A stretch of 32,811 nt of DNA from positions 1 to 32,811 of the forward strand of contig JAUSLX010000018.1 in assembly GCA_030645775.1 (NCBI GenBank), in the 5' to 3' direction. The notes beneath the pieces are model-generated. The model made no database searches. It worked only from the letters and a program-made list of their open reading frames with translations, and was not told the origin of the DNA. Made by a program: the position numbers and the translations under genes. The first letter of the stretch is position 1, and the number at the start of each line of letters is the position of its first letter. The stretch is from Gallionella sp. GTDB lineage: Bacteria > Pseudomonadota > Gammaproteobacteria > Burkholderiales > Gallionellaceae. Shown piece after piece: positions 209 through 21,957 of the stretch.

Positions 209-2434
209 ATGAAAAAAAATGCAATATTGATAGGCCTTGGGCTGATGATCGTGCTGATTTTTGTCGGCAATGCGACCGGGCGCTTCTACCGGCTGAATTT
301 TATTGATCAACTGTCTGCTGTCCTGTATGACTACAGTTTGCAGCTCACCATGCCTGAGACACTGGATGAACGTATTGTCATCCTCGATATTGACGAAAAA
401 AGCCTGCAGGAAGAAGGTCGCTGGCCGTGGAGTCGTGATCGCCTGGCTCTGCTGGTGGATAAGTTATTCGATAACTACGGTATTGCAGTGGCCGGGTTTG
501 ACGTGGTGTTTGCCGAAAAAGATGAGAGCTCAGGGCTTAAGGTATTGCAGCGGCTCGGGCAAAATCAGCTTAAAAGTAATGCTGAATACCAGGGCGTTTT
601 GACACGCATCCAGCCACAACTCGAATATGACACGCTGTTTGCTGACAAAATCAAAAACCGCAAGGTGGTGCTGGGGTATTACCTGAGCAATCAGCAGGAA
701 AAGAGTATCTCCGGCATGCTACCCGAGCCGATCTTTCAGGCAGGCTCTTTCAAGGATAGGCCCATCGAATTTATTTCGTGGAATGGCTATGGCGCCAATC
801 TGCCTGAATTGCAGCACGCTGCTGCCAGCGCAGGACACTTCAACCCCATAATAGACGCAGACGGCGCGGTCCGGCGTGTGCCCATGCTGGCTGAATATAA
901 CGGCGCGTATTATGAGTCGCTTTCCATGGCGGTGGTGCGTACCCTGATCGGCAACACGAATGTGTCGGTGCATTTTTCCGGCAACGGCGACAACGATTAC
1001 ACCGGGCTGGAATCGCTGGGACTGGTCGCTGTTGACGGAACGCTGAAAATTCCGGTGGACAGTAATGTGGCAACATTCGTGCCTTATCGCGGCAAGCAGG
1101 GCAGCTTCCGTTACATTTCTGCTACCGATGTGCTGCATGATCGTGTCGAGCCCGGGCAACTCAACAACAAGATCGTGCTGATCGGCACGAGTGCGATAGG
1201 CTTGCTGGACAATCGGGCTACCCCGGTGTCCGAGACCTTTCCAGGGGTGGAAATACACGCCAATATGGTTGCCGGTATTCTTGACCAGAATCTGAAGCAG
1301 CATCCGGCTTATATGCTGGGTGTTGAAGTGATGTGGCTGCTGCTGATGGGTATAGTCCTGAGTTTATGGTTGCCGAGGCTTAGTCCTGCCAATGCGATGC
1401 TGGTTTCGTTCGTTATGCTCGCCACTACGGTAGGCGTGAGTTTGTCCCTCTGGCAATACGGCGATTTGCTGATGCCGATGGCGAACAGTCTGGTAATGAT
1501 TACCCTGTTGTTCGCGCTGGATATGTCCTATGGTTATTTCGTCGAAGCGCGCACCAAACGTCAGATTACCGGACTGTTCGGGCAATATGTGCCCAGCGAA
1601 GTGGTGGAGGAAATGAGCCATCATCCCGAGAGCGTATCCATGAAGGGGGAAAGCCGTGAGATGACGATATTGTTCTCGGATGTACGCGGTTTCACCACGA
1701 TATCGGAAGGGTTGGGCCCTGAAGAATTGACGGAGTTGATGAACGAGTTTTTGACGCCCTTGTCGCGCGTTGTTTATAAACACCACGGCACGATAGACAA
1801 GTACATGGGTGACTGCATCATGGCATTCTGGGGTGCGCCCTTGCCGGATACACAACATGCGCGTGATGCCATCCTGGCCGGCATCGAGATGCAGGCGACG
1901 CTGGATGCGCTGCAACCTCATTTCAAGGAACGCGGCTGGCCGGCCATTCATGTCGGTGTCGGTATCAATACCGGAAAAGTCAGTGTCGGCAATATGGGTT
2001 CAGAGGTGCGTGTCGCCTATACCGTGATGGGTGACGAGGTGAATCTGGCCTCGCGACTGGAAGGCATCACCAAGCAGTATGGCGTGGGCATCGTGGTTGG
2101 TGAGCACACCCGGAATGCCGTAACAGACTTTGTGTATCGCGAGCTTGACCATGTGCGGGTAAGAGGGAAAAACGAACCGGTGGCGATATATGAACCGATA
2201 GGATTGAGCAGTGAAGTGCCTCAGACTATGCAGGATGAAGTGGCGCTGTTTCATGAAATGCGGCATCTGTATTGCGCCCAGGATTGGGATAAGGCCGAGT
2301 TGCAGTTGGTGAAGCTGCAAAGCCTGTCGCCCGATACCCGGTTGTACGGCGTCTATGCCGAACGCATCGCCCATTTCCGCAATAATCCACCTGATGCAGA
2401 CTGGGATGGGGTATTTGTATTTCAGACAAAATAG
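209..2434 (+). CDS. CHASE2 sensor domain / transmembrane / class III adenylate or guanylate cyclase
   Basis: ORF 191-2434; ATG at 209 is preceded by GGGAGG. N-terminal TM, CHASE2-like periplasmic region (DERIVILDIDEKSLQEEGRWPWSRD, FDVVFAEKD, VLIGTSAIGLLD), TM helices, then cyclase motifs FSDVRGFTTISE, DKYMGDCIMAFWGAP, YTVMGDEVNLASRLEG. Confidence 0.92.
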   Translation: MKKNAILIGLGLMIVLIFVGNATGRFYRLNFIDQLSAVLYDYSLQLTMPETLDERIVILDIDEKSLQEEGRWPWSRDRLALLVDKLFDNYGIAVAGFDVVFAEKDESSGLKVLQRLGQNQLKSNAEYQGVLTRIQPQLEYDTLFADKIKNRKVVLGYYLSNQQEKSISGMLPEPIFQAGSFKDRPIEFISWNGYGANLPELQHAAASAGHFNPIIDADGAVRRVPMLAEYNGAYYESLSMAVVRTLIGNTNVSVHFSGNGDNDYTGLESLGLVAVDGTLKIPVDSNVATFVPYRGKQGSFRYISATDVLHDRVEPGQLNNKIVLIGTSAIGLLDNRATPVSETFPGVEIHANMVAGILDQNLKQHPAYMLGVEVMWLLLMGIVLSLWLPRLSPANAMLVSFVMLATTVGVSLSLWQYGDLLMPMANSLVMITLLFALDMSYGYFVEARTKRQITGLFGQYVPSEVVEEMSHHPESVSMKGESREMTILFSDVRGFTTISEGLGPEELTELMNEFLTPLSRVVYKHHGTIDKYMGDCIMAFWGAPLPDTQHARDAILAGIEMQATLDALQPHFKERGWPAIHVGVGINTGKVSVGNMGSEVRVAYTVMGDEVNLASRLEGITKQYGVGIVVGEHTRNAVTDFVYRELDHVRVRGKNEPVAIYEPIGLSSEVPQTMQDEVALFHEMRHLYCAQDWDKAELQLVKLQSLSPDTRLYGVYAERIAHFRNNPPDADWDGVFVFQTK

Positions 2435-2636: not shown

Positions 2637-5600
2637 TTATTGAGCCGCCACCTGCTGGAATACCGCCACGCCGTTAACCGTGCCGGCATTGAGCCCGCCT
2701 TTTTCAAATCCGTAGGTGATCGCTGCAACCACGCCGCCTGTGCCGCCGAAGCCGCCGCCGATCCCACCGCCGTTGGTCGTGCCGCAAAGTCCGGCAGTAC
2801 AGGTCACCGCTAACGCCCCTGCACCGGTCATCTTGCTATCGGTGAAGAAATTGGCGCGGTTCATAATCGGCACACTTGTTGCGGCTGCATTCAACGTTGC
2901 GCCGCCAGCCGTGACATTCACGCCGACATCCACGGTTTGCGCGGTAAAGTTGGCACTGAGTGTGGCGGAATTCAGCGTCCCGGCCACCCCGGCCTGATCG
3001 GTAGGCGACGTGCCGCCAACCTGGTTATAGGTGTAAGTGCCGCTGGTCGGCAACGACACCGGCCCGGTCGCAACCGAACCCACTACCGCATGGGCGCCAC
3101 CGGCCAGGGTAATGTTGTTCTGCCATACCCCGCTTGTACGGTCTTGCACATTCACCACGGTGCCTGCAGTCCAACGCCCCCAGCTGACCGTGTCGCTGCC
3201 GACCGTGAAACTTCCCTGGTCGGCGTACCCACCGCTCACATGCTGTATCGTGGAGCTGCCGCCACCGGAATTGTCATCAAATTGTGTAAGGTGGCCATTA
3301 ATATCAGTCGAGACACGCGCCGCGTTGTTGTATGCTCCGCCCAACATCACGGTGGGAACCAGCGCCATCGGCTCGCTGATGGAACTCAATACCACGCGAT
3401 AAGAAGTTGCAGTATCGTTGGCTACGGCTGCGCCCAATGCCGCTACGCCCTGCACCCACTCGGTGCTTGCAGCCGGAACGCCAACCAGGTTGAATTTCAG
3501 GATCGCGCCGTCCAGTGCCGCCCCTACCAGTTGCCCGTTCAGACTGCCGCCGGCAACTATCTGCCCCGTTCCAGGATTTACTATTACCGTCAGATAGCCG
3601 GGCTGCGAAGGCGACCGGTAGCTGTCGGCACTAAAGGCATTCAGGATATTACCGTTCGAATATTCCAGCGGCGCATTGCTGGTGCTGGCCGCCCAGGTAT
3701 TCCCGCCCACCGTCAGGTTCAGGTTGGCCGCCACGGTTTGTGTGGCGAAATTGGCTGTCAACGAGGTCGTACCGTTGATCGTGCCATGTCCCCCGCCGGA
3801 CACGCTGAACATATTGGTGACATCGCCGTCGACAAAGTTATACACGGCATTGGTCGTGGTCAGCACCTGAGCCAGATAGACCGGAGTGGGTTCAGGTGCT
3901 GTGATCCAGTGTAATTGCGCAAAACCCGGTGTATAGCTGAAGTTGCTGACAGCCATGGAACCCTCGGCCCAGCTTCCCCAGTTGATCGAGCCGCTGCCTG
4001 TACCGACCGCAGTGTGCACGACCCCGCCGGTAACCGGCTCCACTGTGTTGAGCCAGTTCGTACCGCTCCATTCGGTCAGCAGACCATAGCTCGTGGTGAC
4101 TGTAGGCGAGCTCGCAAGTTGTAATGAGTTCGCCACCACAAAGGCACCGCCCGTAGTGGGGGTGCCATTGCTAACTGTCGGATTGGTAGTTACAGGCATG
4201 CGGTCAAATCCGACCAGGCCGCCCAGATTCAGATTGTTGTTGTCCCACAGGCTGTACTGGACTATCGCGCCGGCATAGTTCTGCCCCAGGAAAGCACCGC
4301 TGACGTTGCCGCCGCAGTTAGTCGCACAAGCACTCGCGTTCACCGTAATAACCGGTGCGCTATCACTGAAGCGAGCGCCCGTGCCGGTAGTGCTGTTCAT
4401 GAACGTGATCGGCCTATTCGTGCTGTCGAGCGTCCAGTTGTCTGTACCCATCGTGCCGGAAAGACCCAGGCTCAGCGTCTGGCTGGTGAAGTTTGCACTC
4501 AGCGTCGTCCGCGTCAAACTGCCGGCAGCCCAACTACCCGAATCGTAGGATGTGGCAGCGACCTGGTTATAGGAAAATGTCCCTGCCAGCGGTCCGGTCG
4601 TTCCCGCTACCACCGCCGAATCGAGATAGCCTTCCGCGCCATACATGTAGGAAGGCAATAGCATGTTCCCGTTCTGACTCGGCACCATCAGACGCCGCTC
4701 GGTCGCAGTGACGCTGGTGACCGTTTCCCACACGCCGAAGGTAATGCCATTGGTGGTCGTGGTCGGCGACGTGGTCGTACTTGGGCTGTTCAGTACATCC
4801 CTCCTGTAGCCCGAACCATTGCCGTAATTTTGCGTAAACGTGGTCGGATTGCCGACGGGTGTAATCTCGCCGGGTGCGGCGATAAAGTTGAAACTTCCGC
4901 CATAAGCCCCGGTATAAGCCACCGCCGTATTGGTTGCAACATAAGCTGCAAGCGGTCCGGTCAGGTTGACGGTCGGCGCGACGCCGGTATTGAACGCCAC
5001 ATATCCGTAAACGATGTCCGCAGGCGAGGTGGGTGTTTCAAGCCAGACGGCGTAACCCAGTACAGCGTCGACCGCCGTTGCGCCGACAAAGGCACCACTC
5101 ATTTCCGCCAGGAATGACTCGCCGGTAGCCAAAGCACACGGGCCGACGGTGCATGCCACGGTGGGCGGAGAAGCCGATTTAAACGAGTTCGAGCCGCTCA
5201 CGGAGTTGATTGGCATATTGCCCGCTACGTCGAACGTATCGCCCGCCAACAGGCCCGTATTCATCGTCAGATTCAATGCCGCGTTCACCAGCTGACTGGT
5301 GAAATTTGCGCTCAGGCTTGCGCTGTTCAGCACACCCATACCGCCTTGCGAATCAAACGGGGTAGTGTGGGCAGTTTTGGTATAGCTTGTTGTGCCTGTC
5401 AATGACTGGACAAAGCCGTTTGCTGGCCCCGTAGCGTACGCCCACAGGCTGCTGGTCGGGCCATAGGTTCCGCCAGTCAGGCTGGTTGTGAACGATGCGG
5501 GCGTGGTGGTGGACAAGTCGGTTACGGCAACAATGCCGCCCTCCCAGCGACCGAAAGTGACAGCACCGCTGGTCGACTGGTGATAGTCGGCAGCGGTTCC

Positions 5601-8600
5601 GCCGCTCCAGGCGATATTCGCGTTCGCGAGTGAAACTATCGGCGGGAGTTGAGTTGTCGCATAGGGCGAACCGCCCGGCTCCTGATAGGTCGTGCCGAAC
5701 AGTTTAACCAGATTCCCGGCACCATCCAGCCTTATGCTGGTATTGGCCATGGGCAGCGTATTGTTGTGAAGCCCGGTGTTATAACCGCCGGCTATGGTAA
5801 CCGGGTTCATGAAATCGATACCATAATTGCCTGCGAGTGGGTGAGTGCCTGTGGTCGGCGCGGTGGCGGTGCTGAACGCGACCAGTCCCATGATTGAATT
5901 GATCGCCGCGTCAGTGGACAGGGCCGTTGGCCAGATGTTATAGGACAGGCCGATGCTGGCCGCACTCGTGCCGGCAAAACTGCCGCCGAGGTCGGCGCTG
6001 TAGCCTGTCGCTCCTGCAGCACAGGTGCCGGTGCCGGTGGTGCAACTTGTTGTCAACGCGCTTGCATTGGGAACGCCGAAGCCGCCGTTAAAATCAATCG
6101 GCATGTTGACTGCGCTTACGTTGAAGGTGCCTGCCATCGTCCCGGTATCCATAGTCAGGCTCACTGCTGCATCCACCAGCTGACTGGTGAAATTCGCCGT
6201 CAGGCTCGCGTTAGTCAATATACCCAGGGTGCCGATAGCATCAACCGGTTTGGTACTGCCCGCCACATTGTAGGTGGTCGTGCCCACCAGCGCGGGCACA
6301 TAACCGGCTGGCGGCGGCAGGATCACTGCCCACAGGCTGGCGGCAGGCGTATAGGTATATACATTGGTTGGTACAGCGTTATCCGTCACGGTCACCGTGC
6401 CGCCCATCCAGCGTCCGGCGTAGAGGCTGTTGTCGGCAAGCTTGAAGGTATCGGCCGCCGTGCCGCCGCTCCATTTAATATCCGCACCCGTGGTAGCCGT
6501 TATGGATGGAGTCAGCACATTGCCATTCTGGTTGGTCTGTACCTGAAACGGCAGGTTGCGGGCTTCGACCAGATTGCCGTCAACATCCAGTACGTAGGTG
6601 GTATTGGGTTGCAGCGGGTTGGTGGGCGCAAAGGCTTCATTGAAACCGCCGGTCACCGCCACGGGAAACATCGCCGCCGCAATAAAATTACCGGCAACGG
6701 CCGGATTATTGTAAGCGGCTATCGGCGCATTCGATGCAATTATCGGGGCCTGGGTGTTGACCGTTACCAGGTTGGTGGTGGAAGTGGACAAAGCTGCTGC
6801 TGCATTATCCGCAGCTGTTTGCGCTGCGCTGGCTTGGGTGCTGGCTGTGCCCGCATTGGTCGCTGCGGTAGTGGCTGCATTGGCTGCCACTGTCACCGCA
6901 TTGCCCGCCGCTGTTTGCGCTGTCTGTGCGTTGGTCAATTGTGTGGCTACAGCGGATTGTGCTGTCTGCGCATTGGTCTGTTCCGCCTGCGCAATCGCCA
7001 GCTGTTGTTGGGCAATAAGCAGCTGCGCCTGCGCGCCAACCAGATCTCCACCGGCCTGTAACGTTGCGGCAGTATCTGCGGCTGTCTGCGCCGCAGTTGC
7101 TGCAACTTGCGCATTGGCAGCTGCGGTCTGGACTGCGGTCAATGGCGTTGTGATGGATCCCTGTGCAGTCACAATCGCCGTGTTTTGGATATTAGCTGCA
7201 GTCAGACTGGTATTGGCTGTAGTCAGGCTGGTGCTGGCTGTGCCCAAAGCGGTACTCGCGGAACCTTGTGCTGTGGATAGCGCAGTGCTTTGTGCGGTTA
7301 CAGTTCCGGCTGCGGCTTGCACGGTTGTGGTTGCGGTCTGTAAAACCGAATTGGCATCCTGTATCGTTGTATTGGCAGTGGTCGCAGTCGTATCCGCAAA
7401 TACGCCATGGGCGGTCAGTGCGGTCTGAGCCGATCCGGCCAGAGTCGAAGCGGTCAGTGCGCTCGCCTGTGCAGCATTTGCATTGTCTGTCGCCGTTGCC
7501 AGTGTTGTGGCAAGGTTAATTGCAGTTGCCGCACTCACCGCCGTGCCTGCAGCGCCTACATCGGTCGTCGCCGTGCTTATCGCCGTGACTGCCGGGGCCG
7601 TGCTTACCTGACCAAGCCCGGCTAACGTCGTACTGTTTCCCAAGGCTGTCGTTGCTGCATTCTGTGCTGCGGTCGCTGCCGCTGCCGCGTCAGTGGCGGC
7701 GGTCTGCGCCAGCGTAGCAAATGGCTGCACAGTTGGCGCCACCTCGGTGGAGAACACCACCAGTCCTTGTATCAGGTCGGCCGCCGGAGTCGTTGCCCCC
7801 GGTGCTGCCCCGGCCCATAACGTGTAGCTCAGGCCGGCGCTTGCGGCGGCATCGCCCGCAAACATCCCGCCAACATTTGCGTAATAGGTTCCGGTGCAAC
7901 CGGTACAAGTGGCGGTTACTCCATTATTCGTGCTAAATCCCGAACCATTAATAGGCATGTTGGGTGTTTGTACATCCAGCGTTTTGGCACTAATGCCAAG
8001 ATTCAATGCAGCACTCACCAATTGGCTGGTGAAATTTGCGCTCAGAGTGGCGCTGTTTAATACCCCGACATTACCCAGCGCATCGGTCGGTGAAGTGGCG
8101 CTGGCCATGGTGTAGGAAGTCGTTCCGGTCAAGGCCTGCACATAAGCGGTGGCGGGCGTCAGCATGATTGCCCAGTGTTCACTGCTGTTACCAAGATTGC
8201 GGGTAAATACAGGAACAGGTGTGTACATAGCCGAACCCGGCGTGTTGTCGGTAACGGTGAGGCTGCCCCCCGTCCATCTTCCGCCGTAAATGCTGTTGTC
8301 GGCAAGCTTGAACGCTTCAGCGGCAACGCCGCCGGTTCTTTTTATATTGGCATCGGCTACCAGTATTTGTGTTGTTGCTGTTGAGGCAGGGGTTTCCTCA
8401 TACCAGGCATGGCGGCTTTCCACGAGATTGCCTGCACCATCCAGCACAAAACTGGTATTGGCCGTCCCCACACCGGCAAATCCGGCACCCGGGCCATAGC
8501 CTTCGATATATTGCCCGGTTGTGGGTGTCACTACCGTAGCCAATACACCGACGAAGCGGTCAGGTGTGACTACTGCCGGGTTGTTATAAGCGGCAACCGG

Positions 8601-11486
8601 TGCATTGGCGGCGACTAGCGGGGCATTAGTGTTGACGGTTGCCAGATTCGTTATGGAAGTGCTCAGGGCTGCTGCTGCATCGGTCGCTGCTGTTTGCGCT
8701 GCGCTGGCTTGGGTGCTGGCTATGCCCGCATCAGTTGATGCGGTATTCGCAGCAGACGCTGCCGTAGAAACGGCGTTTGTTGCCGTAGAAACGGCAGTTT
8801 GTGCAGCGGTGGCCTGGGTGCCGGCTGAGCCCGCATCAGTAGCCGCAGTATTTGCAGCAGTTATTGCAGTAGTCACCGCTGTGCTGGCTGCGCCAACTGC
8901 GGTTTGTGCCGCAGCCGCTTGCGCGCTGGCCGTGCCCGCGTCGGTAATCGCAGTACTGGCCGCCGGTGTGACAGCAACAAGCGCAGTGCTGGCCGCGTAA
9001 GCCGCCGGCGATACGAGTGCAGCCTGTGTGCTTGCCGTGTTGGCGGCTGTTTGCGCCGCCGTTGCCGCTGCAACGGCATTATTCACATTAGTCAGACCGG
9101 TGGTTTGTGCTGTCTGCGCGCTGGTCAATGAAGTTGTCAGCGCAGTTTGCGCGCTGGTGGCGGCAGTCTGTTGTGTTTGCGCAATGGCGAGCTGTTGCTG
9201 GGCGATGAGCAGTTGTGCCTGCGCACCGACCAGATCGCCGGCCGCTTGTAACGTGGCGGCCTGGGTCGCAGCGGTCTGAGCAGCCAGTGCTGCGGTTTGT
9301 GCGGCTGCCGCTGCAGTTTGTGCGGCGGTCAGTTGCGCAGGGGCTGAAGTCTGTGCGGCGGTAATCGTGTTGTTCTGGACGGTTGCGGTGTTCAGGTTGG
9401 TATTGGCCGCAACCAGATTGGCCTGAGCCGTAGTCAGTGCGTTCTGGGCGGCAAGTTGCGCCGTGGTCAGGGCTGCATTCTGAGCGGTCGCGGTATTCAG
9501 GTTGGTATTGGCCGCAGTCAGATTGGTCTGAGCCGTGTCCAACGCGCTCTGGGCGGCAAGCTGCGCCGCAGTCAGGGCCGCATTCTGATTGGTTGCGGTG
9601 GTCAGGCTGGTGTTGGCCGCAGCCAGATTATTGTTCGCCGCAGTCAGCGCGTTCTGTGCGGCAAGCTGAGCCGCAGTCAGGGCAGCGTTCTGATTAGTCG
9701 CGGTGTTCAGACTGGTGTTGGCTGCAGCCAGATTGTTGTTCGCCGCAATCAGCGCGTTCTGGGCAGCCGTCTGCGCCGCAGTCAGACTCGCGTTATTCGT
9801 ACTGACAGGCGTCACCGCTCCTTGCACGGCGGTGTTGGCGCTCTGCAACGTGGTATTGGCGGCCTGGGCGGCAGCAAGCGCGGGCGCGGCAGTCGCATCG
9901 GCAAAAGTGGCGTTTGCCGCTAACTGGTTGGCTGCGGCAGTGGTCTGGGTGCTGGCAGTGCCAGCCGTTGCCGCTGCTGCCGCTGCATTGTCAGCAGCCA
10001 GTGTTGCATTTGCCGGGGTGAGTGTGCCCGCCGCAGTAACGACGGGGGTGGCTGTGCTGATATGTGAGCCGGCTGTTCCGATAGCCGTGGTGGCCGCTGT
10101 GGTTGCAACAGGCGCAAGTAAGCCCGCCGCAGTAACTGCCGTACTCGCCGTCCCGATATTATTGCCGGCTGCCAAGATAGCCGCGTCAGCAGGCGTGGTT
10201 GCAACAGGTGCCAAGGCATTGGCTGCCGTCACTGCAGTAGCCGCCGCATTGACATTCGTCGTGGCGGTCGATACTGCCGTTGCAGCTGACGTAGTGGCGA
10301 CAGGTGTTATCACAGAAACGCCTGAGTAGCTTGTAGCCGCACCGGTAACCAAGGGGTCGGCTGTCGCGATGGCCGTGGAGGCAGGAGCGGTATCAACCGG
10401 TGCCAGTGCCGCCAGCTGCGCGTTATCCGTTTGTGCGGTGTTTGCTGCAGCTTGTGCGCCAGTCGCTGCATTTGCCGCCGCATCGGCGGCGGTTTGCGCC
10501 TGAGCTGCGACCAAGCCCTGAGTAATCGTAAGGAGTTGCCCGGTGTTAGTTGTAGCTGTTCCAGTGGTAAGGTTCACATCTAAACCGGCAACTGTCGTGG
10601 TAGGCATAACTGTAGTCGGTGCCGGTGGTTCAACCACTTCCGCGACGGTGGTGGTTGTCATAGGCGGTGCGTTTGCGGCAGGCGCGCCCCCGGTGCGGGG
10701 AGCAGTGGTATCTACTACTGCTACCTCACGAATAGGCGGTGTTTCATCTTGTGTGGCTGAGTCGGTGCTGGTTTCCTGTGCAGCAGCTTGTTGCTCGGTT
10801 TCCGTCTCGCCGGCATTGACTCCAGGCGTAATGACAGGCGCGGGCGCAACGGTAAAGATGTTGGTGTTGAGCGGTTGCAGTTGCGGGGACTGGTTCAGAC
10901 TGCCTGCGAACCCCATTTGGTTGGGCCCCACGTTGAGCGTGCCCTCATTGGTGGTCATCGATGTTCCGCCTACATTCACCTTGCTGTAAGAGCCTGTGGG
11001 TGCAAGTTGTGCCAGAGGGCTGCCGGGGATAACGACCAGAGTCTCGTGGTCGGAGCCACGGATGCCGATGCTGGCTGTCGGGGTGGTGATGCGGTAGTTA
11101 TGTTTGTTCACCTGCCCGATAGCGCCGGTGATGGCGCGGAAACCGCCTTTGAATACCGAGAAGAAACTTTTTTCGCTGCCATCTTCCTTGCCGGCAAAAA
11201 CGAACTGGTCAAATTTCATCTGTGAATCCGGGCGAATTGCGATGAAGCCGCCGTCCTGCATTTTGATCTGTGCAGAGGATTTTGGCGCGGAGGTCAGCGT
11301 ATCGCCTTCATTGATGGCATCGCCTTTTTGCGCCGAACGGGCCTGGCCTGTCGGGTTGGCGATTTGCACATCTCCGCTGACGAACTGCACGTGTCCGGCT
11401 ATGGCCGCGTAAGCCGCCGGAGAGGCAGCCATGAAGCAGACGACCGTCAAACTCAGACAGGAAAATAATGTGTTAATGTTTTTCAT
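2637..11486 (-). CDS. Giant secreted FecR-domain protein with long Ala-rich regions and six C-terminal beta-rich modules (2949 aa)
   Basis: Single uninterrupted ORF; RBS GGAG upstream of ATG at 11486; signal peptide (MKNINTLFSCLSLTVVCFMAASPAAYAA); FecR-like region (GDVQIANPTGQARSAQKGDAINEGDTLTSAPKSSAQIKMQDGGFIAIRPDSQMKFDQFVF...TPTASIGIRGSDHE); internal repeats. Confidence 0.93.
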   Translation of the reverse strand: MKNINTLFSCLSLTVVCFMAASPAAYAAIAGHVQFVSGDVQIANPTGQARSAQKGDAINEGDTLTSAPKSSAQIKMQDGGFIAIRPDSQMKFDQFVFAGKEDGSEKSFFSVFKGGFRAITGAIGQVNKHNYRITTPTASIGIRGSDHETLVVIPGSPLAQLAPTGSYSKVNVGGTSMTTNEGTLNVGPNQMGFAGSLNQSPQLQPLNTNIFTVAPAPVITPGVNAGETETEQQAAAQETSTDSATQDETPPIREVAVVDTTAPRTGGAPAANAPPMTTTTVAEVVEPPAPTTVMPTTTVAGLDVNLTTGTATTNTGQLLTITQGLVAAQAQTAADAAANAATGAQAAANTAQTDNAQLAALAPVDTAPASTAIATADPLVTGAATSYSGVSVITPVATTSAATAVSTATTNVNAAATAVTAANALAPVATTPADAAILAAGNNIGTASTAVTAAGLLAPVATTAATTAIGTAGSHISTATPVVTAAGTLTPANATLAADNAAAAAATAGTASTQTTAAANQLAANATFADATAAPALAAAQAANTTLQSANTAVQGAVTPVSTNNASLTAAQTAAQNALIAANNNLAAANTSLNTATNQNAALTAAQLAAQNALTAANNNLAAANTSLTTATNQNAALTAAQLAAQSALDTAQTNLTAANTNLNTATAQNAALTTAQLAAQNALTTAQANLVAANTNLNTATVQNNTITAAQTSAPAQLTAAQTAAAAAQTAALAAQTAATQAATLQAAGDLVGAQAQLLIAQQQLAIAQTQQTAATSAQTALTTSLTSAQTAQTTGLTNVNNAVAAATAAQTAANTASTQAALVSPAAYAASTALVAVTPAASTAITDAGTASAQAAAAQTAVGAASTAVTTAITAANTAATDAGSAGTQATAAQTAVSTATNAVSTAASAANTASTDAGIASTQASAAQTAATDAAAALSTSITNLATVNTNAPLVAANAPVAAYNNPAVVTPDRFVGVLATVVTPTTGQYIEGYGPGAGFAGVGTANTSFVLDGAGNLVESRHAWYEETPASTATTQILVADANIKRTGGVAAEAFKLADNSIYGGRWTGGSLTVTDNTPGSAMYTPVPVFTRNLGNSSEHWAIMLTPATAYVQALTGTTSYTMASATSPTDALGNVGVLNSATLSANFTSQLVSAALNLGISAKTLDVQTPNMPINGSGFSTNNGVTATCTGCTGTYYANVGGMFAGDAAASAGLSYTLWAGAAPGATTPAADLIQGLVVFSTEVAPTVQPFATLAQTAATDAAAAATAAQNAATTALGNSTTLAGLGQVSTAPAVTAISTATTDVGAAGTAVSAATAINLATTLATATDNANAAQASALTASTLAGSAQTALTAHGVFADTTATTANTTIQDANSVLQTATTTVQAAAGTVTAQSTALSTAQGSASTALGTASTSLTTANTSLTAANIQNTAIVTAQGSITTPLTAVQTAAANAQVAATAAQTAADTAATLQAGGDLVGAQAQLLIAQQQLAIAQAEQTNAQTAQSAVATQLTNAQTAQTAAGNAVTVAANAATTAATNAGTASTQASAAQTAADNAAAALSTSTTNLVTVNTQAPIIASNAPIAAYNNPAVAGNFIAAAMFPVAVTGGFNEAFAPTNPLQPNTTYVLDVDGNLVEARNLPFQVQTNQNGNVLTPSITATTGADIKWSGGTAADTFKLADNSLYAGRWMGGTVTVTDNAVPTNVYTYTPAASLWAVILPPPAGYVPALVGTTTYNVAGSTKPVDAIGTLGILTNASLTANFTSQLVDAAVSLTMDTGTMAGTFNVSAVNMPIDFNGGFGVPNASALTTSCTTGTGTCAAGATGYSADLGGSFAGTSAASIGLSYNIWPTALSTDAAINSIMGLVAFSTATAPTTGTHPLAGNYGIDFMNPVTIAGGYNTGLHNNTLPMANTSIRLDGAGNLVKLFGTTYQEPGGSPYATTQLPPIVSLANANIAWSGGTAADYHQSTSGAVTFGRWEGGIVAVTDLSTTTPASFTTSLTGGTYGPTSSLWAYATGPANGFVQSLTGTTSYTKTAHTTPFDSQGGMGVLNSASLSANFTSQLVNAALNLTMNTGLLAGDTFDVAGNMPINSVSGSNSFKSASPPTVACTVGPCALATGESFLAEMSGAFVGATAVDAVLGYAVWLETPTSPADIVYGYVAFNTGVAPTVNLTGPLAAYVATNTAVAYTGAYGGSFNFIAAPGEITPVGNPTTFTQNYGNGSGYRRDVLNSPSTTTSPTTTTNGITFGVWETVTSVTATERRLMVPSQNGNMLLPSYMYGAEGYLDSAVVAGTTGPLAGTFSYNQVAATSYDSGSWAAGSLTRTTLSANFTSQTLSLGLSGTMGTDNWTLDSTNRPITFMNSTTGTGARFSDSAPVITVNASACATNCGGNVSGAFLGQNYAGAIVQYSLWDNNNLNLGGLVGFDRMPVTTNPTVSNGTPTTGGAFVVANSLQLASSPTVTTSYGLLTEWSGTNWLNTVEPVTGGVVHTAVGTGSGSINWGSWAEGSMAVSNFSYTPGFAQLHWITAPEPTPVYLAQVLTTTNAVYNFVDGDVTNMFSVSGGGHGTINGTTSLTANFATQTVAANLNLTVGGNTWAASTSNAPLEYSNGNILNAFSADSYRSPSQPGYLTVIVNPGTGQIVAGGSLNGQLVGAALDGAILKFNLVGVPAASTEWVQGVAALGAAVANDTATSYRVVLSSISEPMALVPTVMLGGAYNNAARVSTDINGHLTQFDDNSGGGSSTIQHVSGGYADQGSFTVGSDTVSWGRWTAGTVVNVQDRTSGVWQNNITLAGGAHAVVGSVATGPVSLPTSGTYTYNQVGGTSPTDQAGVAGTLNSATLSANFTAQTVDVGVNVTAGGATLNAAATSVPIMNRANFFTDSKMTGAGALAVTCTAGLCGTTNGGGIGGGFGGTGGVVAAITYGFEKGGLNAGTVNGVAVFQQVAAQ
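9375..9794 (-). repeat. Four tandem 105-bp (35-aa) repeats within the giant gene
   Basis: Protein units NASLTAAQTAAQNALIAANNNLAAANTSLNTATNQ / NAALTAAQLAAQNALTAANNNLAAANTSLTTATNQ / NAALTAAQLAAQSALDTAQTNLTAANTNLNTATAQ / NAALTTAQLAAQNALTTAQANLVAANTNLNTATVQ. Confidence 0.9.
10023..10310 (-). repeat. Three tandem 96-bp (32-aa) degenerate repeats within the giant gene
   Basis: ITPVATTSAATAVSTATTNVNAAATAVTAANA / LAPVATTPADAAILAAGNNIGTASTAVTAAGL / LAPVATTAATTAIGTAGSHISTATPVVTAAGT. Confidence 0.8.
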
Positions 11487-11507
11487 GATGACACTCCAAA
11501 CAAAAAA

Positions 11508-12986
11508 TTATTTGAAATCGCGGCGAACGGTCAACGAAACATCGGTGCGATCAAAGCTGTACAGGGAAAGGTTGGAATGCTTTCTGGAGAACGCTATTTG
11601 CGGTTTTATCGTCCAGAGCTTGTCAGGGTGCCAGTTCGCGGCGACAGTCAGGTCGTATAGTTTCTCGCTGCGATTGCTCATGATCAGGTTGTTCAGTTTT
11701 CCGTAATTGGCAGACTGCAAACCGGTACTGGCAATAACGTCCAGCTGTTCGGCGATAGCGGCCTGACCGCCCATGCGCAGGCCCTCAAAACGCTTCTTGC
11801 CGTCCGTGCGTCCGCCGTTGGGCAGGCCGGGAGAAACGACAGGCGCGACATCCAGCTCATTGCCCGCATAAATACTGCCGAACAGCGCATGCTTGCCACC
11901 CGTCATGATGTGTACCCAACCCGCACCCACTACCACTTGATCGGTGTTTCCCTCAATGCGCGCATCGGTGCCCGGCGAGGTGGGCGGAAAACCGGCTGCA
12001 CGATTCTGAGCATACTGGACAAAAGCACTCATCTGGTTGGCGGGGCTGAATGCATGCTGCCACTCGCCACCCACACCCAGGGAATCGCGACGCATGGAAT
12101 TGGCGGTATAAAGTTGTCCCAGGCTCAGGGATAGTTTGTACACATTCTGTTCGCGTGCATAAGTCACCCCGACACGACCCTCTGTGCTGATGGTGTCGTA
12201 GGCAGTCTGGGTCATATTGCCGTGCTGGCGCAGATCAGCCCCCGCATACACGCCCCAGTTGGCATTCAGGCTGTGGTTGATTTCACCGCCTGTATTAATA
12301 CCTTCATAAACGCCTGTAAGCTTGGCGCCCGGCGGCAATTGATTCCCCGGAAATAAGCCGCCCCAGGGTGAATTGGCTGCGAAGGTAAAAGTTTGTGTGC
12401 TGCTGTTGGCGATGTTGCTGTCGTGTCCTGCCACGCCCTCCACATAAGCACTAATGCGGGTTTTTTGGGCTTGCTCATGGCTGGCAATGGCATCCAGATA
12501 TTTTTGTATGGTGGCTTTGGCTAATTCGGGAGGGTTCTGACCCAACACGGTTTCGAATTCGGTTTTGGCGCGCAGCAGATCGCCGAGCTGATAATAGGCG
12601 CGCGCCATATCCAGACGCGCGCCGGCAAAATTAGGGTCCATGGTCAGCACGCGTTCAAACGCGAGTGTCGCTTTGTCTGCATGCCCGCTATCCAGTGCAG
12701 CGATACCGAACAGATAGTCGAATCGTATTTCACCGGAACGCTCGAATTCAAGCGGTTTAAGCAGAGTGTAAGCGGCGGCGGGATTGCCATTCTTGATTAA
12801 CGCATCGGCATCGCGCAAGGGTTGGTCGCGCGCATCCGGCGTGGTCAGGTCAGGCGGGGCGGTTAGCTGCCCGGGTTGGGCGGACTGTGGTGTTTCCTGT
12901 GCGGCATCGACTGGCTGTGCAACCACACTGCCGGCAAGCAACATCAATCCAGAGAACAACGAACTTGCAGAACGTATGAATTTCAT
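11508..12986 (-). CDS. TPR-containing outer-membrane beta-barrel protein, Slam (surface lipoprotein assembly modifier / T11SS)-like
   Basis: ATG at 12986 preceded by AGGGTG (ORF track starts at an upstream GTG, 12995). Signal peptide, TPR-like repeats (DALIKNGNPAAAYTLLKPLE, ALDSGHADKATLAFERVLTMDPNFAGARLDMARAYYQLGDLLRAKTEFETVL), then a ~310-aa barrel-like region starting AYVEGVAGHDSNIANSS and ending DVSLTVRRDFK. Confidence 0.7.
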   Translation of the reverse strand: MKFIRSASSLFSGLMLLAGSVVAQPVDAAQETPQSAQPGQLTAPPDLTTPDARDQPLRDADALIKNGNPAAAYTLLKPLEFERSGEIRFDYLFGIAALDSGHADKATLAFERVLTMDPNFAGARLDMARAYYQLGDLLRAKTEFETVLGQNPPELAKATIQKYLDAIASHEQAQKTRISAYVEGVAGHDSNIANSSTQTFTFAANSPWGGLFPGNQLPPGAKLTGVYEGINTGGEINHSLNANWGVYAGADLRQHGNMTQTAYDTISTEGRVGVTYAREQNVYKLSLSLGQLYTANSMRRDSLGVGGEWQHAFSPANQMSAFVQYAQNRAAGFPPTSPGTDARIEGNTDQVVVGAGWVHIMTGGKHALFGSIYAGNELDVAPVVSPGLPNGGRTDGKKRFEGLRMGGQAAIAEQLDVIASTGLQSANYGKLNNLIMSNRSEKLYDLTVAANWHPDKLWTIKPQIAFSRKHSNLSLYSFDRTDVSLTVRRDFK

Positions 12987-13462: not shown

Positions 13463-13780
13463 ATGAAAAAATTGATTGCATTGGCTTGTTTGGGATTGAC
13501 CGTGTCTGTATCTGCTCCTGTTTTTGCGGGTGCGCAACAGGACAAAATGAAAGGCTGCAACAAGGAAGCGAAAGCGGGCGCACTCAAGGGTGACGAACGC
13601 AAGGCTTTTATGGGTAAATGTTTGAAGAAAGACTATGTGTTGAAGGGTGAGGCGGCAGCCAAAACGGACGCCGCAGCGCCGCAACAGGACAGGATGAAAT
13701 CTTGCAATGTGGATGCCAAGGCCAAAGAGTTGAAAGGCGATGAACGTAAGGCATTCATGAAGACGTGTTTGAAAGGTTAG
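13463..13780 (+). CDS. psiF: PsiF-repeat family small periplasmic protein
   Basis: Signal peptide plus two PsiF-like repeats (QQDKMKGCNKEAKAGALKGDERKAFMGKCLK; QQDRMKSCNVDAKAKELKGDERKAFMKTCLK); RBS AAGGAG. Confidence 0.85.
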   Translation: MKKLIALACLGLTVSVSAPVFAGAQQDKMKGCNKEAKAGALKGDERKAFMGKCLKKDYVLKGEAAAKTDAAAPQQDRMKSCNVDAKAKELKGDERKAFMKTCLKG

Positions 13781-13798
13781 GGAAACGCTGATTAAATC

Positions 13799-13883
13799 GT
13801 CTTTGCGAGGAGCGCAGCGACGTGGCAATCCAGAATCCCTTTTAGATCAAAGCACTGGATTGCCACGCTTCGCTCGCAATGAC
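13799..13883. repeat. REP-like inverted pair (gtctttgcgaggagcgcagcgacgtggcaatccag ... ctggattgccacgcttcgctcgcaatgac)
   Basis: Two arms reverse complementary over about 29-35 nt, between psiF stop and terminator. Confidence 0.8.
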
Positions 13884-13935
13884 AACTTTAAGGAATAAAT
13901 CAGCATCACCTTAGGATAAACAGGCATAGGGGAAG

Positions 13936-13957
13936 GGCGCACGAGGTGCGCCTTTTT
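13936..13957 (+). terminator. Intrinsic terminator downstream of psiF-like gene
   Basis: GGCGCAC-GAG-GTGCGCC followed by TTTTT. Confidence 0.85.
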
Positions 13958-14057
13958 CATAGACGGGTCGGTCGCGTCTAATAATTCCCCGTGGGTCTTG
14001 CCGTGTATAATCCGCGCTTCGGCGCGCAACCTGCTGTGCCTAATTATTAAATATTTG

Positions 14058-15407
14058 ATGATCAAAAAATTTCTCAAACGCGTATTCAGCAAATCAGCCA
14101 AGGCTAAAAAAGTCGGCAATGCGCAGGTGATTCCGTTTGCCATGCATGGCGTTTCCCGTGAACAAATCAGTTATGGTGCCAAACGCGTGACAGATGGTTT
14201 GCAGGCAGCGGGCTTTCAGGCTTATGTGGTGGGCGGAGCGGTGCGCGATCTGTTGCTGGATAAAACGCCCAAGGATTTCGATGTGGCGACCGATGCCACG
14301 CCCGAGGAAGTCAAACGTGTGTTCAGGCGTTCACGCATCATCGGGCGGCGCTTTCGTCTGGTGCATGTGATGTTCGGCGAAGAGCTGGTTGAAGTCGCTA
14401 CTTTCCGCTGCATGATGGAGGCGGAAGATGCGCAGACCGACGAGCACGGACGCCTGTTGCGCGACAACGAATTCGGCGATCAGGAGCAGGATGCAGCGCG
14501 GCGTGACTTTACCGCCAACGCGCTGTTTTATGATCCGACCACTCAGGAAATTTTCGACTACCACCGTGGCTATCAGGATACCCGGGAGGGTGTGTTGCGC
14601 ATCATAGGCGACCCGCTGGTGCGCTATCGCGAGGACCCGGTGCGCATGTTGCGCGCGGTGCGACTGTCCGCCAAGCTGGGCATCAAGCTGGATGCGGCGA
14701 CCGCAGCACCCATTGCCGGGATGAAATCCTTGCTCGACAACGTGCCTGAGGCGCGCATGCTGGACGAAGTGCTGAAAATGCTGCTGTCGGGGCATTCGGT
14801 CGAGTGCATCCAGCAGTTGCGCAAGATGGAACTGCATCATGGGCTGCTGCCGCTGCTGGATGTGATCATGGAACAGCCGATGGGCGAGAAATTCGTCATG
14901 CTGGCGTTGAAAAATACCGATGAGCGCCTGGCGCAGGACAAGTCGGTTTCACCCGCCTTTCTTTTTTCTGCGCTGCTCTGGCATGAAGTGCTGGCAGCCT
15001 GGAATGCGCTGGTAGCGCAAGGCGAGCGTCCGGTGGGTGCGATGCATACGGCGATGGACGAGGTACTGGCAAAGCAAAAGAAAAAACTGGCCATTCCGCA
15101 CCGCCACGATGCGGTGATGAAGGAAATCTGGTTGTTGCAGCAGCGCTTCGAGCAGCGTGCCGGCCAGCGTCCGTACCGTCTGCTGGAACAGCCGCGTTTT
15201 CGTGCAGGGTTTGATTTTCTGTTGTTGCGCTGCGCCAGCAATGAAGTGGATAACGAGCTCGGACTGTGGTGGGATGAGTTTCAGGATGCCTCTGAGGCGC
15301 GCCGTCAGGAAATGCTGCAACCGGAAGGCGTGGGCGCGGCAGCCAAAAAACGTCGCCGCAAGCCGCGAAAAAAGCCGGATGTGCTGTCGGATGCGGTGAC
15401 TGAGTAG
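14058..15407 (+). CDS. pcnB: Poly(A) polymerase I
   Basis: Nucleotidyltransferase motifs VVGGAVRDLLLDKTPKDFDVATDATPEEVKRVFRRSRIIGRRFRLVHV, RRDFTANALFYDP; Arg/Lys-rich C-terminus; ATG at 14058 chosen (ORF opens at 13998). Confidence 0.93.
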   Translation: MIKKFLKRVFSKSAKAKKVGNAQVIPFAMHGVSREQISYGAKRVTDGLQAAGFQAYVVGGAVRDLLLDKTPKDFDVATDATPEEVKRVFRRSRIIGRRFRLVHVMFGEELVEVATFRCMMEAEDAQTDEHGRLLRDNEFGDQEQDAARRDFTANALFYDPTTQEIFDYHRGYQDTREGVLRIIGDPLVRYREDPVRMLRAVRLSAKLGIKLDAATAAPIAGMKSLLDNVPEARMLDEVLKMLLSGHSVECIQQLRKMELHHGLLPLLDVIMEQPMGEKFVMLALKNTDERLAQDKSVSPAFLFSALLWHEVLAAWNALVAQGERPVGAMHTAMDEVLAKQKKKLAIPHRHDAVMKEIWLLQQRFEQRAGQRPYRLLEQPRFRAGFDFLLLRCASNEVDNELGLWWDEFQDASEARRQEMLQPEGVGAAAKKRRRKPRKKPDVLSDAVTE

Positions 15408-15895
15408 TGACAGAACACGTCGCCTTTATCGGTCTGGGCAGCAACCTGGGTGAGTCGTGCGATCAATTAAGGTTAGCCCTGGCAGATATCGACGCTTTGC
15501 CCGGCACACGTCTGCTGGTTTGTTCTTCATTTTATCGCAGTGCGCCGGTCGGTTTTCTGGATCAGCCGGATTTCGTCAATGCAGTGGCGAAAATCAAGAC
15601 AACGCTGGCACCACAAGCCTTGCTCGCTGCCTTGCTGCATATCGAACAGTATTACGGTCGGGAGCGAGCTTTTCACAATGCGCCGCGCACGCTGGATCTG
15701 GATGTGCTGCTGTACGGCGATTTTCAGCTACACGAACAGGGTCTGACGATTCCGCATCCCGAGATGCACCGCCGCGCCTTCGTTTTGCTGCCGTTGCTGG
15801 AGATAGCCCCGGATTGCGTTATTCCGGCAATAGGGCTGGCACGGCATGCCATACAGGGCTGTCTGGATCAGGCGTTGAATAAACTGGAAAATTAA
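15407..15895 (+). CDS. folK: 2-amino-4-hydroxy-6-hydroxymethyldihydropteridine pyrophosphokinase
   Basis: [54 protein letters not shown] start overlaps pcnB TAG by 1 nt. Confidence 0.95.
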
Positions 15896-15927
15896 CCTTT
15901 TTTGTCACGCTCGAAAGGATGTCTGCC

Positions 15928-16152
15928 ATGAATACCGAAACTTTGGAAGACGCGGTTATGCACCTGCCGTCACAGCAGCGTGCTGAGCTGGCGCGCAAAT
16001 TGTTGATGAGTCTGGACACGCAGGACGAAGGTGAGATTGCCGATGCATGGCATGCTGAGGCGCTGAATCGCGCGGCAGAAATTGACGGAGGGGAGGTTGA
16101 CACGCTGTCAGAGGAAGAGGTTCGTGCCGCAGCCCGTGCGTTGTTGCGATGA
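15928..16152 (+). CDS. Addiction module antitoxin (RelB-like / addiction module protein family)
   Basis: Small acidic protein [30 protein letters not shown]..., start overlaps next toxin ORF by 4 nt (ATGA). Confidence 0.8.
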
Positions 16153-16448
16153 ATTACCGGTTTCACCCCAAGGCTGCGGGCGAACATTACGATCATGTTG
16201 CCTTTTATGAGGTGCGTCTGCCGGGTTTGGGTGCCGATTATCTGGCTGAGTTTGAGGCGGCGATGGCGCATATTTGTCGTTCGCCCCGTTTTTCACCGAA
16301 AATTGCCGAGCCCAATATCCACAAGGCGGGATTGAAGCGCTTCCCCTTTCACGTTATTTATCGAGTTGAATCAACACAAGTGCTTGTACTCGCCATTGCT
16401 CATCAGCGTCGTCGTCCGGTCTATTGGTCGGGGCGAGTCCTGAAATGA
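16149..16448 (+). CDS. RelE/ParE-family toxin
   Basis: 99 aa, [19 protein letters not shown]...[20 protein letters not shown]...[14 protein letters not shown]...[14 protein letters not shown]. Confidence 0.88.
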
Positions 16449-16503
16449 CGAGGGTGGTAGTGGATCCATTGTGTCGAATCACAAAAAATTAATTGAGGAA
16501 TCT

Positions 16504-17295
16504 GTGCGTACAACATTGACCACCCTGAAAATGATGCACGATCGTGGCGAGAAAATCGCCATGCTGACCTGTTACGACGCGAGTTTTGCCGCGTTGCTCG
16601 AAGCTGCGGGCGTGGATGTGCTGCTGGTGGGCGATTCGCTGGGGATGGTGTTGCAGGGTTTGGAAACCACTTTGCCGGTTACGCTCGATGACATGGTTTA
16701 TCACACGGCATGCGTGGCACGCGGGGCTGCGCAGGCATTCATCATCAGCGACATGCCGTTCGGCACATCGCAGATCAGTCCGCAGGAGACCTTTGCTCAT
16801 GCGGCGAAACTGATGGCAGCGGGCGCGCAAATGGTCAAGCTCGAAGGGGGGGCAGCGATGCTGGATACGGTGCGCTTCCTGACTGCACGCGGCATCCCGG
16901 TCTGCGCACACATCGGACTCACGCCGCAATCGGTGCATCAACTGGGCGGCTATAAAGTGCAAGGAAAAGAGTCCACTGCCGCACAGCAATTGCTGCAAGA
17001 TGCGCTGGCGCTCGAACAGGCAGGTGCTGCGATGATCGTGCTCGAACTCGTGCCCGCCATGCTGGCAGCGGAAATCACCGCACAATTATCTGTTCCGACC
17101 ATAGGCATAGGCGCGGGCGCGTCCTGTTCCGGTCAGGTGCTGGTGCTGTACGACATGCTGGACATCTATCCGGGTAAGAAGGCGCGCTTTGTGAAAAACT
17201 ACATGCAGGGCGCGACATCCATCGCGGAGGCGGTGAGCCTGTACGTTGCCGAAGTAAAAGACGGCAGTTTTCCCGCGTCGGAACACGGTTTTTGA
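16504..17295 (+). CDS. panB: 3-methyl-2-oxobutanoate hydroxymethyltransferase
   Basis: [82 protein letters not shown] 16504 has RBS GAGGA (alternative GTG at 16471). Confidence 0.95.
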
Positions 17296-18128
17296 TGCAA
17301 GTCATATCAACGATTTTCGAGCTGCGTGCACGCCTGAGCGGTGAGCGCGCTATCGCTTTTGTGCCGACCATGGGCAATCTGCATGAAGGGCATCTCGATT
17401 TGATGCGGCAAGCCAGAAACCACGGTAGTTGTGTGGTTGCAAGCATCTTTGTCAATCCCTTGCAGTTCGGGCCGAATGAGGATTTCGAGCAGTATCCGCG
17501 CACCCTGGATGCAGATTGCGCGAAGCTGCAAGTGCTGGTGGATGTGGTGTTTACTCCGGCGGTCAATGAGATGTATCCGGTACAGCAAACCGTGTTTGTC
17601 GAACCGCCGCCGATTGCCGATGAACTCTGCGGCGCGGCGCGCCCCGGTCATTTCAGGGGCATGGCGACGGTGGTGCTGAAGTTGTTGAATATCGTGCAGC
17701 CGCAGGTGGCGCTGTTCGGCAAGAAGGATTACCAACAGCTGCATATCATTCGTCAGTTGGTTGCACAGCTGAATTTGCCGGTGTGCCTTATCGGCGGTGA
17801 AACGGTGCGGGCGGCGGATGGTCTGGCGCTGAGTTCGCGCAACCAGTATCTGACCGGGGCGCAGCGCAGCGAAGCGGTGTTCCTGAGCCTGACTTTGCAG
17901 GGTATGCGGCAGGCCATCGTGCAAGGCGCACGCAACTTTGAATTATTGCAGCAGCAAGCCGCTCAATCGCTCGCGGGCAGGGGTTGGGGGGTGGATTATG
18001 TGTCAGTGCGCGATCAATCGGATTTGCAACCAGCCGGAGTGGGCTCGCGCGAACTGGTGATACTGGCGGCAGCCCGATTGGGCAAAACCCGTTTGCTGGA
18101 TAATATCGAAGTCAGGGTTGTTGCGTGA
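17295..18128 (+). CDS. panC: Pantothenate synthetase
   Basis: FVPTMGNLHEGHLDLMRQA, SIFVNPLQFGPNEDFEQYPRT, FGKKDYQQLHIIRQLV, SSRNQYL; ATG overlaps panB TGA. Confidence 0.96.
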   Translation: MQVISTIFELRARLSGERAIAFVPTMGNLHEGHLDLMRQARNHGSCVVASIFVNPLQFGPNEDFEQYPRTLDADCAKLQVLVDVVFTPAVNEMYPVQQTVFVEPPPIADELCGAARPGHFRGMATVVLKLLNIVQPQVALFGKKDYQQLHIIRQLVAQLNLPVCLIGGETVRAADGLALSSRNQYLTGAQRSEAVFLSLTLQGMRQAIVQGARNFELLQQQAAQSLAGRGWGVDYVSVRDQSDLQPAGVGSRELVILAAARLGKTRLLDNIEVRVVA

Positions 18129-19938: not shown

Positions 19939-20116
19939 CGCGTGTTTTTTAAGATAACGAGATTGTGTATTGTACAGGGGCTCCCTGTCTGTTATTCGGT
20001 ATTCAAAAGCGGTGCGGCGGAAATTTTATCGATTTTGGCGGGCTGTGACTTTTTCCCTGTATACATGCATCGCATCAGATATATAATCCGCGCCCCGATT
20101 TGAAAGGTAGGTTTTT

Positions 20117-20497
20117 ATGCAAAGAATCATGCTTAAAGCCAAGTTGCACCGAGTACGCGTGACGCACTCCGAGTTGCACTACGAAGGCTCGTGCGCGATA
20201 GACGATGATTTGCTGGATGCGGCTGATATCAGGGAATATCAGCAGATTGATATTTATAACGTCAGCAACGGGGAGCGATTCACGACCTATGCGATTCGTG
20301 CGCAACGGGGCTCTGGCATTATTTCGGTGAACGGTGCGGCCGCGCATAAAGCCAACCCTGATGATATTCTGATCATTGCCAGCTATGCGATGTATTCCGA
20401 GCTGGAGCTGCAAAAATTCCATCCGCAGCTGGTCTATGTAAATGAACGTAACCGCATCATCGCAAAACGGGACGAAATACCGGTTCAGGCAGCCTGA
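20117..20497 (+). CDS. panD: Aspartate 1-decarboxylase
   Basis: [38 protein letters not shown] with GS self-cleavage site; [30 protein letters not shown]. Confidence 0.97.
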
Positions 20498-20509
20498 CAG
20501 ACGTTTGCA

Positions 20510-20538
20510 GGGCTATTTCGATTGACCAATAGCCCTTT
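20510..20538 (+). terminator. Candidate terminator between panD and tpiA
   Basis: GGGCTATT-N10-AATAGCCC followed by TTT; weak U-tract. Confidence 0.45.
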
Positions 20539-20583
20539 CGCGGGTACGATTGCGCAACTTTAAAGATGAGTGGAATGATTACG

Positions 20584-21339: not shown

Positions 21340-21360
21340 CTAAGTGGTTTGGAGTGGTAA

Positions 21361-21693
21361 GTGGAAACAATTGTTTGGGTATTTCATCTCGTAACGGCAG
21401 TCACTTTGTGTGGTTTGGTGCTGGTGCAGCATGGCAAGGGTGCTGACATGGGCGCCGCATTTGGTACTGGTTCTGCCGGTAGCTTGTTCGGCTCCGGTGG
21501 CTCTGCAAATTTCCTCAGTCGTAGCACGGCCGTTGCAGCTACGCTGTTCTTTATTACCAGCTTGTCGCTGACTTATCTGTATTCTCATCCCGCCGAGCAG
21601 CAGGGTGTGATGGATAGGGTGAACGCGAACGCGATAAAGTCTGCGGTCCCCGCTGTGGTGGATACTTCGAAGTCAAAGGAGATCCCAAAGTAA
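21361..21693 (+). CDS. secG: Preprotein translocase subunit SecG
   Basis: VLVQHGKGADMGAAFGTGSAGSLFGSGGSANFLSRSTAVAATLFFITSLSLTYL; between tpiA and tRNA-Leu. Confidence 0.95.
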   Translation: METIVWVFHLVTAVTLCGLVLVQHGKGADMGAAFGTGSAGSLFGSGGSANFLSRSTAVAATLFFITSLSLTYLYSHPAEQQGVMDRVNANAIKSAVPAVVDTSKSKEIPK

Positions 21694-21707
21694 TCGGACA
21701 GAATATT

Positions 21708-21794
<87 letters not shown>

Positions 21795-21957
21795 GTTTTA
21801 AAAAGTAGCAAATAAAGCAGTAATAAAATAATAAAATAAAAATAAAAATACAAGTTGATACCCATGTGTATCGGCAGCCTGAAAACGATTACAAAGTAAT
21901 TCTGATTTAACTCTTGCGGGTTGACTTGCGAATTGCATACATAGAGGGGGAAGCTCG

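Follow-up and report, generated by a model that had tools for sequence, protein, structure and literature searches.

The window analysed here, a 32,811-nucleotide stretch of a Gallionella sp. genome, carries two minus-strand genes separated by 21 bp, whose positions and lengths agree with those given for them in an earlier note on this DNA. The upstream gene encodes a Slam-like protein with a TPR domain and a predicted barrel, and the downstream gene a giant protein of 2949 amino acids (aa) with a FecR region, Ala-rich stalks and a series of modules. In that note, the pair was proposed as a candidate secretion unit of the type XI secretion system (T11SS). The closest named loci are found in Gallionella metagenome-assembled genomes with 90-94% identity, the nearest named relatives being Gallionella-type betaproteobacteria, and the window's own genome contains one SlipAM match and one FecR match in total, the two being adjacent. 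The single good promoter that had been placed ahead of the pair does not hold, since one sigma-70-like site was found upstream against 0.8 expected in shuffled sequence, which is no better than chance.

The translocator gene and its domains are the following:
11508-12986, minus strand: SlipAM/Slam-like outer-membrane protein of 492 aa from the ATG at 12986, with signal peptide, TPR domain and predicted 14-strand barrel (SlipAM PF04575, 31.9 bits against a cut-off of 22; TPR_19, 43.1 bits; AlphaFold2 model with a predicted local distance difference test score, pLDDT, of 84.7)
12462-12839, minus strand: TPR domain, residues 50-175 (helices in the AlphaFold2 model; Pfam TPR families)
11511-12461, minus strand: residues 176-492, predicted to form a beta-barrel of 14 strands, with the GHDSNI motif lying at the first of them (AlphaFold2 model)

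Both the SlipAM and the TPR_19 matches lie above their Pfam cut-offs, and 66 of 69 relatives also match the SlipAM family (E up to 0.01). The more specific TPR_Slam model (PF24575) stays below its cut-off, with 15.5 against 35.2 bits. In the AlphaFold2 model, the TPR helices are followed by exactly 14 long barrel strands, from 176-189 to 478-491. This is the number described for T11SS proteins, whereas PgaA has 16 (PMC8406197). The GHDSNI motif pointed out in the earlier note at the junction between TPR domain and barrel is present, and it lies within a conserved G-x-D-x-N pattern, of which G187, D189 and N191 are invariant in 69 relatives. Thus, the description of the protein as Slam-like, with a TPR domain and a C-terminal barrel, is borne out by the SlipAM family and the 14 predicted strands.

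The giant gene is organized as follows:
2637-11486, minus strand: giant FecR/multi-module protein, probably exported, 2949 aa (translation; FecR and module analyses)
11406-11486, minus strand: signal peptide ending in AYA (next residue A), without lipobox (read from the sequence)
10887-11405, minus strand: FecR region, residues 28-200, the part that is conserved among partner proteins (PF04773; present in nearly all linked loci)
8625-10586, minus strand: first Ala/Thr-rich stalk, residues 301-954, with 7- and 35-residue periodicity (composition, periodicity)
9373-9785, minus strand: 105-bp tandem repeat in 3.9 copies, inside the first stalk (Tandem Repeats Finder)
7731-8624, minus strand: module M1, residues 955-1252 (internal homology)
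6750-7730, minus strand: second Ala-rich stalk, residues 1253-1579 (composition)
5850-6749, minus strand: module M2, residues 1580-1879 (internal homology)
4971-5849, minus strand: module M3, residues 1880-2172 (internal homology)
4191-4970, minus strand: module M4, residues 2173-2432 (internal homology)
3414-4190, minus strand: module M5, residues 2433-2691 (internal homology)
2640-3413, minus strand: C-terminal module M6, residues 2692-2949, with a predicted hemophilin/TbpB-like handle and barrel (AlphaFold2, Foldseek, profile comparison)

The signal peptide agrees with a non-lipidated protein, as had been proposed. The FecR-like region is also confirmed, being PF04773 matched at residues ~61-145 with 32.3 bits against a cut-off of 24; this match appears only when the domain is scanned alone, and the whole 2949-aa giant as Pfam query gives no match. 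In this case, FecR starts straight after the signal peptide, and neither a cytoplasmic anti-sigma part nor a membrane helix precedes it. Also, no sigma-factor family was found among the window proteins scanned. For these reasons, the classical anti-sigma role of FecR in FecI/FecR/FecA systems was rejected for the giant. The long Ala-rich regions noted previously correspond to the two Ala/Thr-rich stalks, both with a heptad-like, 7-residue periodicity.

The six modules, of ~260-300 aa each, are genuine repeats, as had been read from the sequence, with BLASTP E-values between modules of about 1e-11 to 1e-77. A Pfam scan of the six modules matched no family, including TbpB_B_D (PF01298) and the lipoprotein C barrel. 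The fold was addressed with an AlphaFold2 model of M6 built from 39 natural sequences, which reached a pLDDT of 92 and shows a C-terminal handle-plus-8-strand-barrel fold. When this model was compared with the PDB by Foldseek, the best eleven matches were all known Slam cargos with E-values below 1e-3, hemophilin HphA being the first (E 1.4e-5, probability 1.00), followed by TbpB and fHbp. At the profile level, a search of the module sequence profile against the PDB returned two sequences only, both hemophilin-type (E about 3), and an independent hhalign comparison with the handle-barrel regions of SlipAM-linked TbpB-type proteins gave a co-linear match of 77.8% (E 1.9e-5) against 0.07% for a control. 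Moreover, one FecR relative from a distant genome (G316) reaches the PF01298 cut-off, and in a Shinella FecR protein the C-terminal barrel of fHbp (FHBP_C) is matched below threshold. Judged from the predicted structure, the modules are fold-level relatives of T11SS cargo rather than members of the Pfam TbpB_B_D family, and M6, the one module modelled, would fold like a Slam cargo as the earlier note had expected; M1 to M5 would share this fold according to their homology to M6. The C-terminal modules cluster almost as a single group, separate from the internal modules (2 changes, compared with 33 under shuffling), which fits a special role of the C-terminal module.

The conservation of the pair was evaluated in 50 Slam-like loci among 100 relatives and in a public-genome scan with 78 named loci, several genomes being present in both sets. 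In the named set, a FecR or module gene lies directly downstream of 76 out of 83 Slam-like genes, usually 3-30 bp away, and because contig ends truncate three of the seven remaining genes, the linkage holds for 76 of 80 untruncated genes; hence, the gene linkage that was to be checked is conserved. Across the partner proteins, the number of modules goes from 0 to 6, and the FecR region is found in nearly all linked loci. This means that FecR, and not the barrel, is the constant partner of the translocator, the barrels being dispensable. Of the earlier description of the giant as a multi-barrel cargo, the T11SS-type reading stands, and the emphasis on barrels does not, since FecR is constant and the modules vary. 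The partners composed of FecR only belong to a single translocator clade (one change on the tree; Shimodaira-Hasegawa-like approximate likelihood ratio test, SH-aLRT, 97), which reads, from these sequences, as one loss of modules. In many of these (L094:8654-9478, L098:11426-12271, L108:11417-12241, and others), the protein ends with a short tail rich in Pro, whose last residues form a hydrophobic-Phe motif (KVF, RVF, VVF, LVF, IKF) that may serve for targeting.

A different clade has the FecR half and the module half encoded separately, and both gene products have what looks like a signal peptide of their own. For example, in L146:9119-14327, L143:3957-7293 and L142:5057-5524 the gene is split in or near the FecR region, the FecR part being a separate exported protein of ~145-155 aa, and the next module protein starts with an apparent signal peptide, followed in L143 by what appears to be the second half of the FecR region; the operon begins in these loci with a CHASE2 cyclase. 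Other variants are two SlipAM-linked partners of 1206 and 1020 aa (L183:7642-11262 and L184:7630-10692), with module-like regions and no recognisable FecR domain, and the first of two tandem Slam-like genes (L089:5173-6636), with no recognisable partner and a short module-like remnant downstream that suggests a decayed partner. Among plasmids, the search for close relatives gave one weak TPR match only.

The third gene relevant to the unit lies next to the giant:
209-2434, plus strand: CHASE2-domain adenylate/guanylate cyclase, convergent with the giant and its probable signalling partner (CHASE2 196 bits, Guanylate_cyc 79.8 bits)

Close as well as distant relatives also have a CHASE2 cyclase beside the pair. 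Across the phylum, 40 SlipAM loci were sampled, of which 11 have a FecR gene by the translocator and 29 do not. CHASE2 was found near 7 of the 11 FecR-linked loci and near no locus of the remaining 29 (Fisher p 1.8e-5, a value that overstates independence, given that some genomes are related). Near FecR-SlipAM loci, CHASE2 is kept and the output domain varies between cyclase, hybrid histidine kinase and Ser/Thr kinase, the kinase versions being the following:
L148:2748-5297, L150:2735-5284, L186:1915-5841 and L189:8663-12394, near FecR-SlipAM loci: CHASE2 proteins with Ser/Thr-kinase or hybrid histidine-kinase output

In Shinella, the gene order is TPR-barrel protein, FecR protein and CHASE2 cyclase, and genes for NHLP-type bacteriocin export and for a cyclic-nucleotide-binding protein follow in the same operon (L223:9104-15934). 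In a stretch of a Methyloprofundus plasmid (L224:230-4344), a FecR protein gene overlaps with a CHASE2 cyclase gene and is accompanied by that of a CRP-family regulator; no SlipAM gene was seen in this stretch. In Sinorhizobium, a 1221-aa open reading frame that joins FecR, TPR and barrel in one protein lies beside a CHASE2 cyclase, and its size, its barrel position (600-1200) and its adjacency to the cyclase fit NsrA. Signalling from outside through CyaK depends on NsrA as the receptor (PMC7529298). The 1221-aa Sinorhizobium protein is not matched by the SlipAM-branch profile, so that its barrel need not be homologous. As a whole, the CHASE2 link suggests a sensing role, which was absent from the earlier reading.

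We consider it probable that the pair is a T11SS-related (Slam-like) translocator/substrate unit for surface display that doubles as a trans-envelope sensor with CHASE2 signalling. Its T11SS part is well supported by the translocator family, the predicted fold of M6 and the conserved pairing, from which export of the giant would follow. In such a mechanism, Sec would carry the giant across the inner membrane, the C-terminal module would engage the SlipAM barrel, and the module array would be displayed on the cell surface on helical stalks. Less certainly, the FecR part would stay at or below the outer membrane, and, by analogy with NsrA and CyaK, it may inform the nearby inner-membrane cyclase, by way of the CHASE2 sensor of this enzyme, about the state of the surface part.

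Several observations weigh against this proposal. The TM-scores of the M6 matches are only about 0.37 despite their significant E-values, which corresponds to a loose overall match, and neither TbpB_B_D nor the lipoprotein C barrel of Pfam was matched by the six modules or by 38 other C-terminal modules. Moreover, the barrel cannot be the sole reason for the translocator pairing, since a whole clade of translocators is paired with FecR-only partners of 225-311 aa that have no barrel. On the signalling side, the phylum-wide CHASE2 counts include related genomes, and the full-length cyclase is non-adjacent in most Gallionella-like genomes, being tens of kilobases off in G026, G039 and G057, for example; CHASE2 as an obligate neighbour of the pair was rejected on this basis. 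Finally, translocation and the contact between FecR and CHASE2 are both steps that we infer.

The distance to the cyclase in these genomes would be expected if the giant were nothing but a long T11SS cargo without lipidation, for instance an adhesin or a ligand-binding surface protein, with the CHASE2 cyclase as a casual neighbour. The module fold and the translocator family both match T11SS, and Sphingomonas and Psychrobacter are known to have multi-barrel T11SS cargos in which the handle-barrel unit occurs two to three times (PMC12282271). However, a constant FecR accompanied by 0 to 6 barrels, together with the phylum-wide enrichment of CHASE2 with interchangeable outputs at FecR-linked SlipAM loci, makes this explanation rather unlikely. 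The opposite possibility is that nothing is moved, the SlipAM protein being an outer-membrane receptor or anchor and the periplasmic FecR and modules signalling to CHASE2, as a split version of an NsrA-like FecR-TPR-barrel protein. This would agree with the existence of FecR-only partners, with the fused protein beside the Sinorhizobium CHASE2 cyclase, where NsrA acts as the receptor (PMC7529298), and with a CHASE2 cyclase/FecR/TPR cluster in Campylobacterota (PMC9239204). Nonetheless, it leaves unexplained six modules related to exported Slam cargos and stalks of hundreds of residues, and the Sinorhizobium barrel falls outside the SlipAM-branch profile; we regard it as improbable.

A different identity for the TPR-barrel protein, as a polysaccharide exporter of the BcsC/PgaA type or an ordinary porin unrelated to the giant, is hardly credible. 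The earlier note had raised it, and the top Foldseek match of the whole model is indeed BcsC, a TPR-barrel exporter, with no solved Slam structure among the matches listed. However, SlipAM is above its cut-off and no BcsC-specific or BcsC/PgaA-type family was matched in the Pfam scan, the barrel is predicted with 14 rather than 16 strands, and the FecR partner is near-universal. A BcsC/PgaA-type exporter was ruled out on the strand number and the family.

Returning to the combined translocator and sensor, FecR proteins paired with T11SS-type translocators in this branch appear tied to CHASE2 sensors, which is a more interesting point than the T11SS reading itself. More tentatively, SlipAM-FecR-CHASE2 could represent trans-envelope sensors of a family not recognised so far. 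In it, the type 11 translocator would be part of the receptor and display a multi-barrel arm at the surface, and FecR rather than the barrel, as the core partner, would report to CHASE2 enzymes that can replace each other (cyclase, histidine kinase or Ser/Thr kinase). Secretion had been verified only for members of cluster 1, the animal-associated one, according to a 2025 survey of T11SS (PMC12282271), and the other nine clusters, mostly water- and soil-associated, held no characterised protein in a 2021 survey (PMC8406197). FecR is unmentioned in the main text of both surveys, and no description of T11SS-type translocators paired with CHASE2-tied FecR proteins was found in the literature searched. 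Thus, a large environmental T11SS branch would gain a defined partner, nearly universal in it, and a role open to testing. Should the CHASE2 link prove true, a secretion family would be joined to a signalling family, offering a reason for FecR domains on exported proteins. Also, the FecR-only clade can serve as a natural experiment for studying recognition by the translocator.

The remaining window (13463-31203) is ordinary, with a psiF-repeat protein, poly(A) polymerase, HPPK, pantothenate genes, a PAS histidine kinase, triosephosphate isomerase and a run of NADH dehydrogenase subunit genes.

Compared with known systems, the window translocator shares with the Slam/T11SS outer-membrane proteins of the SlipAM (DUF560) family (Slam1/2, NilB, HrpB, TepS) the signal peptide, the TPR domain, the predicted 14-strand barrel, a SlipAM score above the cut-off and an adjacent substrate gene. 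Unlike them, it belongs to a divergent subfamily with a weak SlipAM score, has a FecR protein as partner and CHASE2 sensors as neighbours, and secretion by its branch is what we infer. M6 would share the handle-plus-barrel fold of hemophilin/HphA, TbpB and fHbp, with the barrel at the C-terminus, and the giant is non-lipidated like hemophilin; in contrast to these cargos, its modules fail Pfam TbpB_B_D and occur in six copies in 2949 aa, behind FecR and helical stalks. The multi-TbpBBD surface proteins of Sphingomonas and Psychrobacter (PMC12282271) likewise have several handle-barrel copies in one T11SS-linked protein, although with two to three copies and with proline-threonine repeats instead of FecR and Ala-rich stalks. 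On the other hand, FecI/FecR/FecA anti-sigma regulators have PF04773 in common with the giant, but their cytoplasmic anti-sigma part and membrane helix do not precede FecR in it, and no sigma factor was found among the window proteins scanned. The NsrA-CyaK system of Sinorhizobium meliloti resembles the window, with its cyclase and pair, in placing FecR, TPR and outer-membrane barrel next to a CHASE2 cyclase. It differs in being one fused protein with a larger barrel, unmatched by the SlipAM-branch profile, in which no handle-barrel modules were found. The Campylobacterota cluster, as described (PMC9239204), contains the same three kinds of component as the window, a CHASE2 cyclase, a FecR protein and a TPR protein. 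Finally, an operon of Burkholderia joins a LysM-FecR protein with a CHASE2 kinase (PMC5192318).

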